Assembly: GCF_030503855.1 (NCBI RefSeq)
Contig: NZ_CP129971.1
Span: forward strand, 255,501-319,500
Length of the DNA stretch: 64,000 nucleotides
Source of the DNA: Marivirga salinae
Lineage (GTDB): Bacteria > Bacteroidota > Bacteroidia > Cytophagales > Cyclobacteriaceae
Direction: 5' to 3'
Part shown: one piece after another, positions 46,958-54,887 of the stretch
Layout: each line of letters starts with the position of its first letter
How positions within the stretch are numbered: the first letter of the stretch is position 1
Translations under genes and position numbers: made by a program
The notes under the pieces: model-generated
Databases searched by the model: none
Told to the model about the DNA's origin: nothing
The model's input: only the letters and a program-made list of their open reading frames with translations

Positions 46958-47353
46958 ATGAAAAGTCTACTACTCGATTCCCCTCTAAAAATATTTTTGC
47001 TTGATGCTATTGGGGCAATCATTACTGCCTTAATTTTAGGAATAGTTTTCACAACATTTCAGGAATACATTGGAATGCCTAGAGAAATATTGATTTCATT
47101 ATCCTTAATTGCTGTAGTATTTTGTATTTATTCTTTTAGCTGTTTTTTTATGCTCAAAAGAAACTGGAAGCCATTTTTGAAAGCAATAGCCATTGCAAAT
47201 TTATTGTATTGTGTCGCTACAACAGTTCTGATCATTGCATTATCCCATCAACTCACCATTGTAGGGCTGCTATATTTTATGGGTGAAATAATAGTGATTG
47301 GATTCTTAGTTTATTTTGAGTTTTTAGTTTTGAATAGAATTAAAAATTCTTAA
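46958..47353 (+). CDS. Four-transmembrane small membrane protein
   Basis: A 131-residue hydrophobic protein with four predicted membrane helices (about residues 13-35, 43-65, 74-95 and 100-122) and short loops. No family was recognised. It lies ten bases after the DUF4932-like gene, so the two are probably cotranscribed. Its stop shares TTAA with the convergent purM stop. Confidence 0.75.
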   Translation: MKSLLLDSPLKIFLLDAIGAIITALILGIVFTTFQEYIGMPREILISLSLIAVVFCIYSFSCFFMLKRNWKPFLKAIAIANLLYCVATTVLIIALSHQLTIVGLLYFMGEIIVIGFLVYFEFLVLNRIKNS

Positions 47354-48516
47354 TTGTAAACAAACTCCCCATGCTCACTCTTAACCGTCACTTGCTTTAG
47401 AGCTGAAGCTTCTACCCTTCCGATGATTTGAGCATCAATATTGAAAGATTCGGAGATATCGATAATCTTTTGCGCATCTTTTTCTTCCACATAAAGCTCC
47501 ATTCTGTGCCCCATGTTGAAAACTTTATACATCTCCTTCCAATCTGTTCCAGATTCTTGTTGGATCATTTTAAAGAGAGTTGGGGTAGGAAATAAATTAT
47601 CTTTGATGATGTGAAGGTTCTCCACAAAATGAAGCACTTTAGTTTGTGCACCACCACTGCAATGCACCATTCCAGCCACTTTACCTGACTGTTCTTCCAA
47701 CACTTTCTTAATGACTGGTGCATAAGTTCGTGTAGGTGATAAAACTAGTTTTCCAGCGTCCAAATCTACCCGATCTACTTTATCAGTTAATTTTTTTGAC
47801 CCTGTGTAAATTAAATTATCTGGAACAGAAGGATCAAAACTCTCAGGATATTTAGCCATCAATTCCTTGCTAAATACATCATGACGGGCGGAAGTCAGTC
47901 CATTACTACCCATTCCTCCATTGTACTCATTTTCATAAGTTGCTTGACCGTAAGAAGCCAAACCTACTACCACGTGTCCGGCTTTTATATTATCATTCGA
48001 GATTACATCTGCTCTTTTCATTCGAGCCGTAACGGTGCTGTCCACAATAATAGTCCTTACTAAATCCCCAACATCCGCAGTTTCCCCGCCTGTACTGATA
48101 ATATTCACGCCATTGTCCCTTAGCATTTGTAAAACCTCTTCTGTACCATTTATAATGGCAGAAATTACTTCACCCGGAATCAAGTTTTTATTCCTTCCAA
48201 TAGTAGAGGATAATAATATCTTATCGGTACATCCCACACAAAGTAAATCATCAATATTCATGATGATAGCATCTTGAGCAATGCCTTTCCAGACCGAAAT
48301 ATCCCCAGTTTCCTTCCAATACATATAAGCCAATGAAGATTTTGTACCTGCGCCATCCGCATGCATAATGGTGCAATAATCCTCATCCCCAGTTAGGTGA
48401 TCGGGTACAATCTTACAAAAAGCTTGTGGGAAAAGTCCTTTGTCAAGGTTTTTGATGGCATTGTGAACATCTTCTTTAGAGGCAGAAACTCCACGTTGGT
48501 TGTATCTATCGGACAT
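47350..48516 (-). CDS. purM: Phosphoribosylformylglycinamidine cyclo-ligase (AIR synthase)
   Basis: The 388-residue enzyme closes the imidazole ring in purine synthesis (FGAM + ATP to AIR). Typical motifs are YNQRGVSASKEDV at the start, DGAGTKSSLAY, NIDDLLCVG, STGGETADVGDLV and GLASYGQATY. It is longer than E. coli PurM (345) in a manner seen in Bacteroidota. A TAATTTTG -7 element lies just upstream. A diverged copy of its first 22 codons survives at 52304-52370. Confidence 0.95.
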   Translation of the reverse strand: MSDRYNQRGVSASKEDVHNAIKNLDKGLFPQAFCKIVPDHLTGDEDYCTIMHADGAGTKSSLAYMYWKETGDISVWKGIAQDAIIMNIDDLLCVGCTDKILLSSTIGRNKNLIPGEVISAIINGTEEVLQMLRDNGVNIISTGGETADVGDLVRTIIVDSTVTARMKRADVISNDNIKAGHVVVGLASYGQATYENEYNGGMGSNGLTSARHDVFSKELMAKYPESFDPSVPDNLIYTGSKKLTDKVDRVDLDAGKLVLSPTRTYAPVIKKVLEEQSGKVAGMVHCSGGAQTKVLHFVENLHIIKDNLFPTPTLFKMIQQESGTDWKEMYKVFNMGHRMELYVEEKDAQKIIDISESFNIDAQIIGRVEASALKQVTVKSEHGEFVYN

Positions 48517-48532
48517 GATTCTAAAATTTATA

Positions 48533-48540
48533 CAAAATTA
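48533..48540 (-). promoter_or_regulatory. purM: -7 element of purM
   Basis: The minus strand reads TAATTTTG, a match to TAnnTTTG, 16 bases upstream of the ATG. Confidence 0.4.
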
Positions 48541-48613
48541 AGGGGATTGAAGAAAGGAAACTAATTGTAGGTGTAGTTTTTCATATCTAACAGAAATATA
48601 TTTAAAGCTTAAA

Positions 48614-48772
48614 ATGACCCCATTCGGATTTAATACCATAGTATCAGTTTATTCTTTTTTGGTTTTAGGTGTTACTTATCTTATGTTATTTAAGTTAAAA
48701 AATAATTTCCTTCTGTATTTCCTTCCAGATAAATACACTTTAAAAGCAAACTTTACCATTCTTCACAAGTAG
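48614..48772 (+). CDS. Possible 52-residue single-TM protein
   Basis: ATG at 48614 opens 52 codons to TAG. The product has one hydrophobic helix (SVYSFLVLGVTYLMLF) and a basic tail (FKLKNNF). It lies in the gap upstream of the tricorn-like gene. No family recognised; may be chance. Confidence 0.3.
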   Translation: MTPFGFNTIVSVYSFLVLGVTYLMLFKLKNNFLLYFLPDKYTLKANFTILHK

Positions 48773-48831
48773 CATTTTGCTTTAGAAAATAATCACTATC
48801 TTAACTTATCAAATAAAATAATCCGCAAATC

Positions 48832-51800
48832 ATGAAAAAAATATTCAGTCTACTAATTTTCTGTATGCTGTCATCAGCACTTATGGCACAAAATACACCA
48901 GAATGGATGCGTTATGCCAGCATATCACCTAATGGAAAAGAGATAGCATTTTCTTATAAAGGAAATATTTATTCGGTCAGCAAAGATGAGCCTTTAGCCA
49001 TTCCAATAAGTATTAATAATAGCTATGAATATAAACCCATTTGGTCTCCAGATGGAAAACATATAGCCTTTGCCTCTGACCGGCATGGAAATTTTGATGT
49101 CTTTTTATATTCTACTGAAACTTTAAAAGCTAACAGATTAACCCACCATTCCAACCACGATTTACCAGAAAGCTTTACTGCTGATGGAAAATCAGTTTTA
49201 TTCACTTCAGGAAGGAAAATGAATGTTGATAACTCACAGTTTCCTTATGGTAGATTTTCTCAATTATATAGTGTCAACTTAAAGGGTGACATGCCTCAAA
49301 TGCAAATCCCAATCCCTTTGGAGGCTGTTTCAGTTAATAAAACAGGGAATAAATGGCTTTATATGGATTTAAAAGGCTATGAGGATTATTTTAGAAAGCA
49401 TCATGTTTCCTCCATTACTAGAGATATCTGGGAGTATAATCCTGCAGATAAATCTCACAAAAAATTAACGGAATTTGAAGGGGAAGATAGAGAAGCAGTT
49501 TGGTCAGATGATCAGGAACACATTTATTTCCTAAGTGAGAGATCCGGAACTTTTAATGTTTGGAAAATGAAACCAGGTAGTTCAGAAGAAGCGGTTCAAA
49601 TTACAAATTTCGAAACTCACCCTCTACGCTCTTTAAGTATTTCTGAAGAAGGGACTTTGTCCTTCACCTATCATGGCGAAATTTATACCGTGAAGGAAGG
49701 AGAAACACCAGAAAAAGTAAATGTTCTAATTCCATATGAGCAAGAAGTTGTTACACAGCTCGAGAAAATGAGCTCAGGTGCAACAGAAATGGCCTTATCA
49801 CCAAATGGAAAAGAGATAGCGTTTATTATCCGCGGAGAAGTTTTTGTAACCGGAACAGAGAGTGGAATGACTAAACGAATTACCAATACTCCAGAACAGG
49901 AGCGTTCAGTACATTTTCACCCAGAGGGCAAAAAACTAATCTATGCAGGTGAACGAAATGGGAGTTGGAATATATACGAAACTGAAATTAAAGATGATGA
50001 AGAATCCTATTTTCACGCCTCTACACTACTAAATGAGAAAGCTCTATTAGCCAAGGAGGAAGAAACTTTCCAGCCTAAATATTCTCCGGATGGGAAAGAA
50101 GTAGCTTATTTAAGCAATAGAACCACATTAAAAGTTTTAAATCTAGCTAGCGGTCAGTCACGCACTGTTTTACCTGGAGATAAAAATTATTCTTATTCTG
50201 ATGGAGATCAATATTATGATTGGTCACCAGATGGTAAATGGTTTGCCGTAGAATTTCTTGATAAAAAAAGATGGGTTCCCGAAGTGGGATTAGTTAAAGC
50301 TGATGGAACTCAAGAAGTAAAAAATGTAACTGAAAGCGGTTATGCTGAAGGCGGTCCACAATGGATATTAGATGGCAAAGCACTTATCTATTATTCAGAT
50401 CGAGAAGGATTCCGATCTCATGGAAGCTGGGGTTCACAAGGAGATGTGTACGCCATGTATCTTACGAAGGAAGCTTTTGATCGTGCTCAGCTAAGCAAAG
50501 ATGAATATGATTTATTGGTAGAACGAGAGAAAGAAGAGAAGAAGGACGAGCCTGAAAATGATGATAAAAAGAAATCTAAAAAGGAAGATGATATAGATCC
50601 TGTAAAAATTGAATGGGATAACTTAGAAGATAGAGTCGAAAAATTAACTATTTCATCATCATTTCTCAATGGGATGAAAGTTTCACCAGATGGTGAAAAA
50701 TTGTACTATCTAGCCTCTAGGGACAATAGTGTGGATTTATGGGAATTGAATATCCGTGAGAAATCCACTAAAACCATTGGTAATTTTAAAGGAGGAGATG
50801 CCGCTATGGTGATGGATGAAAAAGGAGAAAATATTTATGTGATGGCTGGCGGAGGTATTTCTCAAGTAAAAACAGCTGATGGCAAAACCAAAGGAGTGTC
50901 ATACACAGCAGAAATGTATTTAGATGCCAATGCAGAGCGCGCTTATATTTTTGAGCACATGTGGCGACAAGTAGTAAGGAAATTCTATAAAAAGGATTTA
51001 CATGGTGTAGATTGGGAAGGTATGAAAGCAGCATATCAACCAAAATTATCACACATTAATAATGACAGGGATTTCGCAGAATTAATGTCAGAGCTTTTGG
51101 GTGAGTTAAATGGTTCACATACTGGTTGCCGTTATTACCATAGTGATAATAAAGGGGATCAAACAGCTGCTTTAGGTATTTATGAAGATTTAAGCTACAC
51201 GGGTGCAGGTATAAAAATTGCTGAAATTATGGACAAATCACCTTTAGCTATCAGTGGTGAAAAGATTAGTGTAGGTAGCATTATTAAGAAGATAGACGGC
51301 CAAACTATATCAGAAAATGATAATTATCTTCCATTACTTAATCACAAAACTGGTAAAACGGTAGTTTTGGAAATAGAGGAAGCGCAATCCAACCAAACTA
51401 AAACGGTAAAAATAAAAGCCATTAGTTTAAACGAGGAAAACAACTTACGTTATGAACGATGGGTGAAATCAAGAAGAGAAGCTACTGAAAAATTATCAGG
51501 TGGCCGCTTGGGGTACGTTCATGTAAGAGGTATGAATTCTTCTAGTTTTCGAGAAGTTTATTCCGAATTATTAGGACGATATAACGATAAAGAAGCCGTA
51601 ATTGTAGATACCCGTTTCAATGGCGGTGGGTGGTTACACGATGATTTAGCTACCCTATTATCTGGTGAGCAATATGTAAAACTAATGCCTCGTGGACAAC
51701 ATATTGGTTCGGAACCGCAAGGTAAATGGCAAAAACCTTCAGTCGTTTTAGTGGGAGAAGGTAATTATTCTGATGCACATTTCTTTCCTGTGACTTATCG

Positions 51801-52056
51801 CGCACTTGATATTGGTAAAATTATAGGTATGCCCGTTCCCGGTACTACCACTGCCGTATGGTGGGAAAGACAGATTAATCCTAATTTAGTATTTGGTATT
51901 CCACAAGTAGGCGTTACGGATATGGATGGCAATTATTTAGAAAATCAACAATTAGAGCCGGATGTAAAAGTTAAAAATATGCCAAGTGAATTGATTGAAG
52001 GAAAAGACAGTCAATTAGCAAAGGCTGTAGAGGTGTTGCTAGAAGATTTGGATTAA
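48832..52056 (+). CDS. Secreted tricorn-like S41 protease with beta-propellers
   Basis: A 1074-residue protein with signal peptide (residues 1-19, ending ALMAQ), two TolB/tricorn-type beta-propellers (about 20-330 and 330-715, with repeated SPDGK motifs), a PDZ domain (about 790-865) and a C-terminal S41 tail-specific protease domain. The catalytic Ser is S980 in GNYSDAHFF, preceded by VDTRFNGGGW. A highly charged lysine/glutamate linker sits at about residues 566-585. Archaeal tricorn is a cytoplasmic peptidase; these exported bacterial relatives probably degrade peptides in the periplasm or outside. A strong terminator follows. Confidence 0.93.
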   Translation: MKKIFSLLIFCMLSSALMAQNTPEWMRYASISPNGKEIAFSYKGNIYSVSKDEPLAIPISINNSYEYKPIWSPDGKHIAFASDRHGNFDVFLYSTETLKANRLTHHSNHDLPESFTADGKSVLFTSGRKMNVDNSQFPYGRFSQLYSVNLKGDMPQMQIPIPLEAVSVNKTGNKWLYMDLKGYEDYFRKHHVSSITRDIWEYNPADKSHKKLTEFEGEDREAVWSDDQEHIYFLSERSGTFNVWKMKPGSSEEAVQITNFETHPLRSLSISEEGTLSFTYHGEIYTVKEGETPEKVNVLIPYEQEVVTQLEKMSSGATEMALSPNGKEIAFIIRGEVFVTGTESGMTKRITNTPEQERSVHFHPEGKKLIYAGERNGSWNIYETEIKDDEESYFHASTLLNEKALLAKEEETFQPKYSPDGKEVAYLSNRTTLKVLNLASGQSRTVLPGDKNYSYSDGDQYYDWSPDGKWFAVEFLDKKRWVPEVGLVKADGTQEVKNVTESGYAEGGPQWILDGKALIYYSDREGFRSHGSWGSQGDVYAMYLTKEAFDRAQLSKDEYDLLVEREKEEKKDEPENDDKKKSKKEDDIDPVKIEWDNLEDRVEKLTISSSFLNGMKVSPDGEKLYYLASRDNSVDLWELNIREKSTKTIGNFKGGDAAMVMDEKGENIYVMAGGGISQVKTADGKTKGVSYTAEMYLDANAERAYIFEHMWRQVVRKFYKKDLHGVDWEGMKAAYQPKLSHINNDRDFAELMSELLGELNGSHTGCRYYHSDNKGDQTAALGIYEDLSYTGAGIKIAEIMDKSPLAISGEKISVGSIIKKIDGQTISENDNYLPLLNHKTGKTVVLEIEEAQSNQTKTVKIKAISLNEENNLRYERWVKSRREATEKLSGGRLGYVHVRGMNSSSFREVYSELLGRYNDKEAVIVDTRFNGGGWLHDDLATLLSGEQYVKLMPRGQHIGSEPQGKWQKPSVVLVGEGNYSDAHFFPVTYRALDIGKIIGMPVPGTTTAVWWERQINPNLVFGIPQVGVTDMDGNYLENQQLEPDVKVKNMPSELIEGKDSQLAKAVEVLLEDLD

Positions 52057-52115
52057 GATAAAAGGTTTTACATTTTTCGATCAGATAATGAATAACAAAA
52101 TATATAGCTAACAAT

Positions 52116-52302
52116 CAAAAAAAGCTCGGAAGTAACTTCCGAGCTTTTTAATTTTTGAGATGATTTTAAGATTACTTTTTCTTAAACTCAGTAATCGTTT
52201 TCTCAATGATTTCACAGCAATCATTTATTTGCTCTTCAGTAATTACCAAAGGAGGGGCAAATCGAATGATGTTTCCGTGGGTTGGTTTAATCAATAAGTC
52301 AT
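52116..52302 (-). pseudogene. Duplicated 3' end of rocD with its terminator
   Basis: This stretch parallels 53551-53737 at a constant offset of 1435 bases: the terminator, the spacer and the last codons of rocD. Its minus-strand frame reads [12 protein letters not shown] and ends EFKKK then TAA (52172-52174), nearly identical to the RocD C-terminus with substitutions such as ND for NE. It joins directly to a purM fragment at about 52303. Degeneration shows it is old. Confidence 0.9.
52119..52150. terminator. Terminator between tricorn-like gene and rocD remnant
   Basis: A 14-bp stem (52119-52132 with 52136-52149), three-base loop and flanking A and T runs permit termination on both strands. 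It is the duplicated copy of the rocD terminator and now serves the tricorn-like gene. Confidence 0.85.
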
Positions 52303-52303
52303 C

Positions 52304-52370
52304 TATCAAGGTTTTTGAAGAGATTGTGAATATCTGCTTTAGAGGCAGAAACCGCGCGTTGGTTATACAT
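52304..52370 (-). pseudogene. Duplicated 5' end of purM fused to the rocD remnant
   Basis: The minus strand from ATG at 52370 reads [16 protein letters not shown] and KNLDR before a stop, matching the first codons of purM (YNQRGVSASKEDVHN, KNLDK) with a three-codon deletion after Met. It abuts the rocD remnant on its left. The purM-to-rocD joint is what a tandem duplication with breakpoints in those two genes would leave. Confidence 0.88.
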
Positions 52371-52454
52371 ATAGCTTTTCTTTGCTCAAAATAATTTCGT
52401 TTAAATTAATTACTTTAGCAATTTAGAATAATCGTAAATGTCCAGTTTACTATA

Positions 52455-53357
52455 ATGAGAAAGTATTTAGTAATAGTATATGTAATTTTTGTCTCCCAAA
52501 TTAGTCTTGCTCAAGATTACTTGATTACCAAAAATGGAGAAAAGATTATTGTCAATTCAGTTAAAGCCAAATACAACAAGGTTATAACCTCACAACCATT
52601 TTTCAAAGGTAAAATAGAATATCAAATTGATGAAATTGACTATTATTATAATACTTATGAAGGCTCCTTTTATTATTTTATTCCTATTGGTGAAGGTAAA
52701 AACACCTATGAATTATACAAGAGAGAATTAGAGGGCAAAATAAAATATTATCGGAAAGTAGATTATAATAGTATTTACAGTCCGAATGGTAACATCAATA
52801 CAAGTACAGAGCATGTATATCTGGAAAAAAATGGTGATTTTAAGAAAGTACTCTATCGTGGAGGGATTCCAAGGAAGAAGAAAGAAAAGATTGCCAATCT
52901 TAAAGAATTTGTTGCAGATGATAAAATTGCATTTAATGAAGTGAATTCAGATTACTTCCAATTCAATTCAGATTATATAAAATCTATAGTAAATAGTTAT
53001 AATTTAAGAGCACATAGCTTTAATAGTGCGTTGGCTCAAGATTCAACTAATGTTATATTTTATAGAGTTAAAAGGCGACAGTATAAAGCACCTTTGTTTT
53101 TTAAAATAGGGGGCAATGAATACGACTTAGTAAGGTATGACTCAATTCAATTGAATATACCGAATGGCCAAGAAATAAAAGTCTGTATTAAGAATTCCAA
53201 TGATCAAATATGCCGACTCATATTACCATCCAATTACGTATATAACTATTATGAATTGTCACTGGATAAATTTGGCGAAGGTTCAATAGTTAGAATGGGG
53301 AGAGAAAATGCAGCTTTTCACTTAAATAAAATTAAACATAAAGTCAGCAAAAGATAA
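52455..53357 (+). CDS. Secreted protein of unknown family
   Basis: A 300-residue protein with a signal peptide (residues 1-19, ending ISLAQ) and a beta-rich, tyrosine-rich mature part (IEYQIDEIDYYYNTYEGSFY). No domain was recognised; an opening ITKNGEKIIVNSVKAKYNKV resembles the small strand motif in many Bacteroidota envelope proteins. It lies between two direct copies of the rocD 3' end and could have entered or survived through that rearrangement. Confidence 0.7.
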   Translation: MRKYLVIVYVIFVSQISLAQDYLITKNGEKIIVNSVKAKYNKVITSQPFFKGKIEYQIDEIDYYYNTYEGSFYYFIPIGEGKNTYELYKRELEGKIKYYRKVDYNSIYSPNGNINTSTEHVYLEKNGDFKKVLYRGGIPRKKKEKIANLKEFVADDKIAFNEVNSDYFQFNSDYIKSIVNSYNLRAHSFNSALAQDSTNVIFYRVKRRQYKAPLFFKIGGNEYDLVRYDSIQLNIPNGQEIKVCIKNSNDQICRLILPSNYVYNYYELSLDKFGEGSIVRMGRENAAFHLNKIKHKVSKR

Positions 53358-53553
53358 ACTACTTAAAAATAATTAGATATTAGTCGTTTTTCATCGACTA
53401 TGGGTGATCCGAACAAGTTACAAACTCAATAGAGTAAGATTAAAGTTTTATTAATGAGAAAATTTTAATCATTGCAACACTAAATCCTTGTTTTGGGAAG
53501 CTCTTTAATAGACCGGGCCGGTTTTATGATCTAAGATTTTTTAATTAAACCAA

Positions 53554-53585
53554 AAAAAGCTCGGAAGTTATTTCCGAGCTTTTTA
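53554..53585. terminator. Terminator of rocD
   Basis: A stem of AGCTCGGAA (53558-53566) with TTCCGAGCT (53572-53580), extended by A and T runs, lies 23 bases after the rocD stop on the minus strand. It may also stop rightward transcription of the upstream hypothetical gene. Confidence 0.8.
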
Positions 53586-53606
53586 ATTTTTGAGATGATT
53601 TTAAGA

Positions 53607-54887
53607 TTACTTTTTCTTAAACTCAGTAATCGTTTTCTCAATGATGTCACAGCATTCATTGATCTGCTCTTCAGTTATTACCAAAGGTGGAGCAAATCGA
53701 ATAATATTTCCGTGAGTTGGTTTAGCCAATAAGCCATTTTCTTTTAAGGCCATACAAATATCCCAGGCAGTTGAGCTGTCAGGAGAATCATTGACTACTA
53801 TGGCATTTAATAACCCTTTTCCTCTTACCAAGCTCACAAATTCAGATTTATCAACAAATTTCTGCATTCTGTCTCTAAAAAGCTGTCCTAGTTTACGAGC
53901 ATTTTGAGCTAATTTTTCATCTTTCACCACGTCAAGAGCAGTAACAGCAATGGCAGTTCCTAAAGGATTTCCCCCAAAAGTAGAACCATGAGTTCCTGGA
54001 GTTAATACTTCCATGATCGGGTCATTTGCTAAGACAGCAGATACCGGATAAAACCCACCAGAAAGAGCTTTCCCCAAAATCAAAATATCAGGCTCCACAT
54101 AAGTTGATTGCTTTTCGCAATGTCCTTCACAACTACAATCACCACAAACAGCTAATAAACTACCTGTTCTAGCAATTCCTGTTTGGATTTCATCGGCAAT
54201 AAATAACACATTATGCTTTTGGCATATTTCTTTACATTTCTTTAAATAATCGGTATCTGGACGATAAACGCCAGCTTCACCTTGAATAGGCTCTACTAAG
54301 AATCCAACAATGTTATCTTCTCCTTGTAATATTTTATCTAAAGCCTCCGTATCGTTATAAGGTATTTTAATAAACCCAGGAGTATATGGTCCAAAGTTCT
54401 TTTTGGCAGTTTCATCACTAGAGAACGAAATTACAGTAGTCGTTCTACCGTGGAAGTTTTGCTCAGCAACAATTACTTTACCTGCATTTGGAGCTACTCC
54501 ATTTTTTTCAGTTGCCCATTTTCTGGCGATTTTCAAAGCGGTTTCCACTGCCTCTGCACCCGAATTCATGGGTAACACTTTATCAAAACCGAAGTAATCT
54601 GTGATATATTTTTGGAAAGGGCCTAATATATTATTGTGGAAAGCCCTTGAAGTCAAAGTTAAAGTCTCTGCTTGTTTCTTAAGGGTTTCTAAAATTCTTG
54701 GATGACTGTGGCCTTGGTTAACCGCACTGTATGAAGATAAAAAGTCATAATATTTTTTTCCTTCTACATCCCAAAGAAAAACACCATCTCCTTTGGCTAA
54801 TACAGCAGGTAGGGGATGATAATTATGAGCTCCGTACTTATTCTCCATGTCAATGGCTTGTTGACTGTTCTTGATTTCTTCAATCAT
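53607..54887 (-). CDS. rocD: Ornithine-oxo-acid aminotransferase with a cysteine-rich insert
   Basis: The 426-residue PLP enzyme transfers the delta-amino group of ornithine to 2-oxoglutarate. The family motifs MNSGAEAVETALKIARKW, ADEIQTGIARTG and the PLP lysine Lys273 in LGKALSGGFYP are present. Between TGSLLAV and VEPDILIL, where most homologues have a short DHE-type loop, there is CGDCSCEGHC with Cys248, 251, 253 and 257, a pattern able to bind metal or form disulfides. The start is near the first conserved segment. A fragment of its 3' end is duplicated at 52116-52302. Confidence 0.92.
   Translation of the reverse strand: MIEEIKNSQQAIDMENKYGAHNYHPLPAVLAKGDGVFLWDVEGKKYYDFLSSYSAVNQGHSHPRILETLKKQAETLTLTSRAFHNNILGPFQKYITDYFGFDKVLPMNSGAEAVETALKIARKWATEKNGVAPNAGKVIVAEQNFHGRTTTVISFSSDETAKKNFGPYTPGFIKIPYNDTEALDKILQGEDNIVGFLVEPIQGEAGVYRPDTDYLKKCKEICQKHNVLFIADEIQTGIARTGSLLAVCGDCSCEGHCEKQSTYVEPDILILGKALSGGFYPVSAVLANDPIMEVLTPGTHGSTFGGNPLGTAIAVTALDVVKDEKLAQNARKLGQLFRDRMQKFVDKSEFVSLVRGKGLLNAIVVNDSPDSSTAWDICMALKENGLLAKPTHGNIIRFAPPLVITEEQINECCDIIEKTITEFKKK

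Follow-up and report, generated by a model that had tools for sequence, protein, structure and literature searches.

Introduction

The original description of insertion with long target duplication is said to be that of Nobusato et al. in 2000. In Helicobacter this mode of insertion is described as often involving restriction-modification genes (PMC1643837). Another route of gene gain, homology-facilitated illegitimate recombination (HFIR), is described from competent bacteria (PMC3240628) and has been proposed for the T6SS immunity arrays of Vibrio, with their displaced gene ends (PMC5361080), and it is also described that transformation can make tandem merodiploids (PMC3784515). Most additive gene gains leave no trace of the entry of the DNA, and it is the scars formed from the host gene's own end which allow the side, the order and the rough age of a capture to be read. 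Our searches of the literature found no report of purM as an integration hotspot and none of long target duplication with restriction-modification insertion in Bacteroidetes; among the Marivirga matches listed, no such rearrangements were found by title.

In this work we have analyzed a stretch of 64,000 nt of Marivirga salinae, a gliding bacterium of the sea (assembly GCF_030503855.1, contig NZ_CP129971.1, positions 255,501 to 319,500; from here on the window, in whose coordinates all positions without a genome handle are given). An earlier note, made from the letters of this stretch, had claimed that the 3' end of rocD and the 5' end of purM were joined there by an old tandem duplication. 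Here the joint, its parents, its surroundings and the corresponding loci of related genomes were compared.

Results

A joint between two gene ends

The order across the locus is purM, tricorn gene, the joint, a gene for a 300-aa protein, and rocD. The border genes, both of them housekeeping genes on the minus strand, are an intact purM on the left (47350-48516; 388 aa, Pfam AIRS/AIRS_C) and an intact rocD on the right (53607-54887; 426 aa, Aminotran_3). The left spacer carries a tricorn-like protease gene on the plus strand (48832-52056), while the cargo of the right spacer is an orphan ORF of 300 aa, also on the plus strand (52455-53357), which has no Pfam match. Between the two lies rocD' (52113-52302, minus strand), composed of the last ~43 codons of rocD together with its stop codon, 3'UTR and terminator; in the pairwise alignment its 190 nt differ at 16 positions (92% identity) from the 3' end and terminator of intact rocD at 53548-53737 on the minus strand. 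Next to it lies purM' (52296-52372, minus strand), the decayed first ~25 codons of purM, whose 77 nt differ at 14 positions (82% identity) from 48433-48509 in the minus-strand 5' end of the intact gene. The local alignment scores of 300 for rocD' and 84 for purM' compare with maxima of 31 and 36, respectively, in 300 dinucleotide shuffles each. The joint is therefore real and its parents are identified, as the earlier note had claimed; the breakpoints that it placed near 48440 in purM and 53737 in rocD were correct to within a few nucleotides, and the divergence which it had seen in both pieces is borne out by the counts above.

The two matches overlap at 52296-52302 and the joint falls within 52296-52304. 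Three of these nucleotides, AAG at 52296-52298, fit the rocD and the purM parent alike, and it should be noted that an agreement of 3 nt can arise by chance. The reading frame of purM' has lost its start codon and reaches a stop at the joint. Beyond the old start codon ~20 nt more (52373-52391, minus strand) are possibly homologous in the multiple alignment and may be what is left of the purM leader, although in pairwise alignment only 12 nt match genome G009, with an E value of 0.76 that is not significant. We read the junction of 52296-52372 with 52113-52302 as a recombination scar of two gene ends which does not code for anything itself. No second rocD-purM joint was found elsewhere in the genome among the 40 of 64 candidates that were scored. 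The terminator part of rocD' contains a bidirectional terminator-like hairpin (52119-52149), convergent with the end of the tricorn gene, with a minimum free energy of -20.0 kcal/mol on the plus and -18.5 kcal/mol on the minus strand, values equalled by 0 of 200 shuffles on either strand; to judge from this structure and its position the hairpin probably still ends the tricorn transcript.

Two unlike spacers and the decay of the fragments

No DNA similarity was detectable between the left spacer (48517-52112) and the right spacer (52380-53547), the alignment score being 28 where 10 shuffles gave 24-35. A plain tandem duplication predicts the same spacer twice and is therefore insufficient. Of the duplication that the earlier note had put forward, the geometry of the joint stands, with a unit running from the purM 5' end to the rocD 3' end, while two copies of one spacer were not recovered; the second tricorn copy, which was held to be missing now from the right-hand unit, has left no trace there.

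The differences between purM' and purM fall on first, second and third codon positions 4, 5 and 5 times, those between rocD' and rocD 2, 2 and 10 times, and in the last 38 codons of rocD' all 10 of 10 differences are at third positions, two of them swapping E and D. First- and second-position changes affect 9 of 48 sites in purM' vs 4 of 88 in rocD' (P 0.012, from 24 and 44 codons only); the split among the changes alone, from the same few codons, is not significant (P 0.13). The decay of the two halves looks uneven, with purM' further gone. Within rocD' there are 3 differences in the 98 nt on the terminator side vs 13 in the remaining 92 nt (P 0.008, at a boundary chosen after looking), a contrast that may reflect partial gene conversion with the intact rocD.

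Searches of the 9 other Marivirga genomes did not find the 300-aa protein. Relatives are present in 15 of 294 other genomes of the family at 22-33% identity (best 33%), and no close relative was found among these 294. Identity of the tricorn gene between G000 and G004 is 88%, and its four-fold-site identity is 43.5% vs 36-42% in core genes. As the tricorn gene has diverged to an extent similar to core genes, it may be the left part that was resident, with the 300-aa side as newcomer. A mobile element of the transposon or integrase type was also considered and was rejected, there being no recombinase match for either cargo protein and no terminal inverted repeats of its own: the long inverted arms at the flanks are the palindromic terminators themselves, and the right spacer has only two 12-nt inverted pairs.

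The purM-rocD region in relatives

The joint was seen in one of 10 Marivirga genomes and in one of 148 genomes of the family (drawn from a larger group, 5 candidates scored in each, the other 147 including two Marivirga), in both cases that of the window. A joined copy was thus found in none of the 9 other Marivirga or the 147 other family genomes; the segment as an independent conserved gene in relatives is what, according to the earlier note, would have spoken against its claim. The comparison of synteny that it had proposed showed that the content between purM and rocD varies. The two genes adjoin each other, with their order kept, in G001, G002 and G009 and lie ~13 kb apart in G006. Their spacer holds a 344-aa M8-type peptidase in G001, HigB with an HTH partner in G002, nothing but a 102-aa gene in G009, and the tricorn gene with nine further ORFs in G006; in G007, where the locus is on two contigs, HTH and C5-methylase genes adjoin purM and an HNH gene adjoins rocD. 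The order of purM followed by tricorn is present also in G004 and G006, whose adjoining tricorn genes are 88% and 73% identical to that of the window. The 102-aa gene was not found in the genome of the window itself by a search with a 50-aa piece, run with no positive control. An exact empty site for the window was found in none of the relatives compared.

The 3'UTR and terminator are common to rocD and rocD', and a comparison with 8 relatives did not show them at rocD there, so that any donor would have been of the same species, or the cell itself. In a tree of rocD' built from ~130 nt, likelihood tests do not separate placements with G000, G009 or G007, and the purM tree is mostly unresolved.

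Repeats of other kinds were seen in two of these genomes. G006 carries two copies of a 330-nt repeat (95%) beyond purM (L051 18148-18831), and at G009:C2:2333500-2357000 (L131-L132) a possible cassette array is formed by numerous direct repeats (64-270 nt, 72-93%) that fall outside ORFs of at least 100 aa.

Fragments of purM ends in other genomes

Self-comparison identified a fragment of a purM end beyond adjacent cargo at four of 10 Marivirga purM loci (the window, G001, G005 and G008), the contigs of G007 and G008 being short enough for fragments to be missed there. The G005 fragment copies 82 nt of the purM 5' end (98.8%); it adjoins a decayed tricorn gene and is separated from purM by the gene for a 1068-aa protein which has a secretion tail. 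The fragments of G001 (215 nt, 91.6%) and G008 (162 nt, 88.9%) are copies of the 3' end, that of G008 lying on the far side of a Fic gene. Outside the genus but within the family, G321 has 91-nt copies of the purM 5' end (86.8%) around a restriction-modification system composed of a DpnII-matching nuclease and a C5 methylase (L145 7259-10215, G321:C33). A rocD-end fragment was seen at one of the 9 rocD loci read, and at none of the purM and rocD loci read was either gene seen in a second full copy.

As background, 4 other candidate copies of ORF sequence outside ORFs were counted in a scan of 1225 ORFs over 1.56 Mb (1.2 Mb of G000, G005 and G009 plus 0.36 Mb of G001), candidates being judged by ORF overlap only. 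Fragments at three of 9 purM loci, with the window genome left out, have a P of about 3e-6 against this background and of 0.003 at a tenfold higher one. A search of the family with the N-terminal purM peptide, which misses decayed fragments and all 3' scars, gave two or more matches in 35 of 390 genomes. Besides G000 and G005 there were 33 of these, of which 31 were re-examined (G377 and G385 being left out), and a second match that was close to purM without being part of its frame turned up in G321 alone, those seen close to purM in G112 and G296 being inside the open frame of purM itself.

Two further sequences were noted. At G005:C1:1679784-1680635 (L053 9785-10636), directly beyond the purM 5' fragment, the decayed tricorn gene has 3 TGA and 3 TAA codons within the match. 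At G000:C1:355360-355421 and 355847-355908 (L102) stand a gene 3' end and a 62-nt copy of it (90%), ~0.5 kb apart, possibly another gene-end scar.

Direction of events in G001 and G005

Comparison of G001 with its sister G002 shows an insertion: 215 nt of the G002 purM 3' end are matched twice in G001, by two separate blocks, and the cargo is flanked by long direct repeats at a site which is empty in the sister. The fragment keeps the TGA stop and the downstream flank of G002, the intact G001 purM having TAA and a new flank. As the 3' end of this intact purM is identical to that of G002 at 216 of 217 positions, either a very close donor or a self-made duplication has to be assumed. Over the whole of purM, G001 and G002 differ at 30 positions in the first 300 nt vs 21 in the other 870 (P 5e-7), with rocD 98.4% and a permease 99.1% identical, and recombination tracts seem to end inside purM.

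In G005 the upstream flank of the fragment comes closest to the G006 flank (z 6.4, followed by G000 at 3.5), and the flank of the intact purM is like those of G000, G002, G004 and G008 (z 7-12) and unlike that of G006 (z 0.2). Since G005 and G006 are sisters on the rocD tree (97/97), the G005 locus holds flanks of two lineages; self-duplication would be expected to give like flanks. The purM mosaic of G001 and G002 and the G005 flanks suggest a homologous tract from a donor in these genomes. The near identity of the sequences (216 of 217 positions between the intact purM 3' end of G001 and that of G002, 98.8% within the G005 repeat) is explained by a self-made target duplication no less well than by a distant donor, or even better.

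Discussion

Origin of the scar

The reading that we favor, and to which we would give about an even chance, is that the joint is one scar in a recurrent gene-acquisition hotspot, left by a one-sided insertion, anchored by homology, which brought in a second spacer allele. The incoming DNA, derived from a close relative, would have paired with one of the border genes through homology and would have been joined at its other end at a microhomology, rocD 3' end to purM 5' end. The locus would in this way have come to carry two alleles of the purM-to-rocD spacer in series, the resident one and the added one, one allele ending at rocD' and the other starting at purM'. The truncated ends would then lose their coding function and purM' would decay. 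In its general form, incoming DNA would be anchored by homology in purM and joined illegitimately at its other end, leaving the resident purM end as a scar. The origin of the second spacer in another cell, the choice of newcomer between the two spacers and the route of uptake are all inferred. Families of ComEC and DprA are present, as they are in most control genomes, E. coli among them, and are permissive only.

The insertion of a second allele has to be weighed against a self tandem duplication, which we hold to be a serious contender, though less likely than not: a unit from purM codon ~25 to rocD codon ~383 would have been doubled at the microhomology, after which the spacer copies lost or replaced different contents, so that tricorn stayed in the left one and the right one ended up with the 300-aa gene. 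The tandem geometry with the 3 common nucleotides and the purM-tricorn order in G004 and G006 agree with it, and it is above all retained because rocD and rocD' share a 3'UTR not seen in the relatives, which is our main result against an outside donor. It would need two or more additional events, neither spacer was found to retain any residue of the other, and the two-lineage flanks of G005 argue against it, as may the uneven change at first and second positions (P 0.012, with 0.13 in the other test). A further possibility is a deletion scar, in which a complete rocD2 adjoining purM2 once stood between the spacers, rocD2 being functional for a time, until a deletion fused the two genes and left their ends. 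The changes confined to third positions in the last 38 codons of rocD' and the further decay of purM' would follow; as this history needs a larger earlier duplication as well, and a second full copy of either gene was seen at none of the loci read, we regard it as improbable. An independent small gene or RNA at the fragment could be imagined from the open 45-codon frame with a TTG start which runs over rocD'. We give it hardly any credence, as the start codon of purM' is lost and a stop stands at the joint, and it was set aside for want of a joined copy in the other genomes searched.

In a wider and more doubtful extension of insertion into purM, this gene would serve in Cytophagales as a preferred docking site. 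Restriction-modification, Fic and other cargo would have been captured time and again at either of its ends with no transposase involved, a scar of the purM end would remain from every capture, and neighboring alleles could be stacked in series. On the reading that we favor the junction records how the genome gained genes, and the scars in sister species make one-sided, homology-anchored insertion testable in wild Bacteroidota.

Comparison with known systems

HFIR as proposed for Vibrio would resemble the window, on the reading favored here, in that one side is joined by homology in a common gene and the other illegitimately, genes being added and resident gene ends shifted aside (PMC5361080). 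It differs in that the joint here brings together the ends of two border genes, that of purM and that of rocD, and in that no donor turned up for the window. With long target duplication as described for Helicobacter the window and its relatives have in common a cargo present in one genome only and long direct host repeats, often with restriction-modification genes, as at purM of G321 (PMC1643837); unlike those insertions, the insert here also ends in a copy of rocD and the cargo is a protease or an orphan protein. The tandem merodiploids described after transformation share the order of parts and the novel joint between unit ends, but their two copies have the same content and are joined within long repeats, whereas here the contents differ and 3 nt are common (PMC3784515). 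The class of mechanism, be it HFIR or insertion with long target duplication, is thus a known one, and the joint in the window looks like a product of such events.
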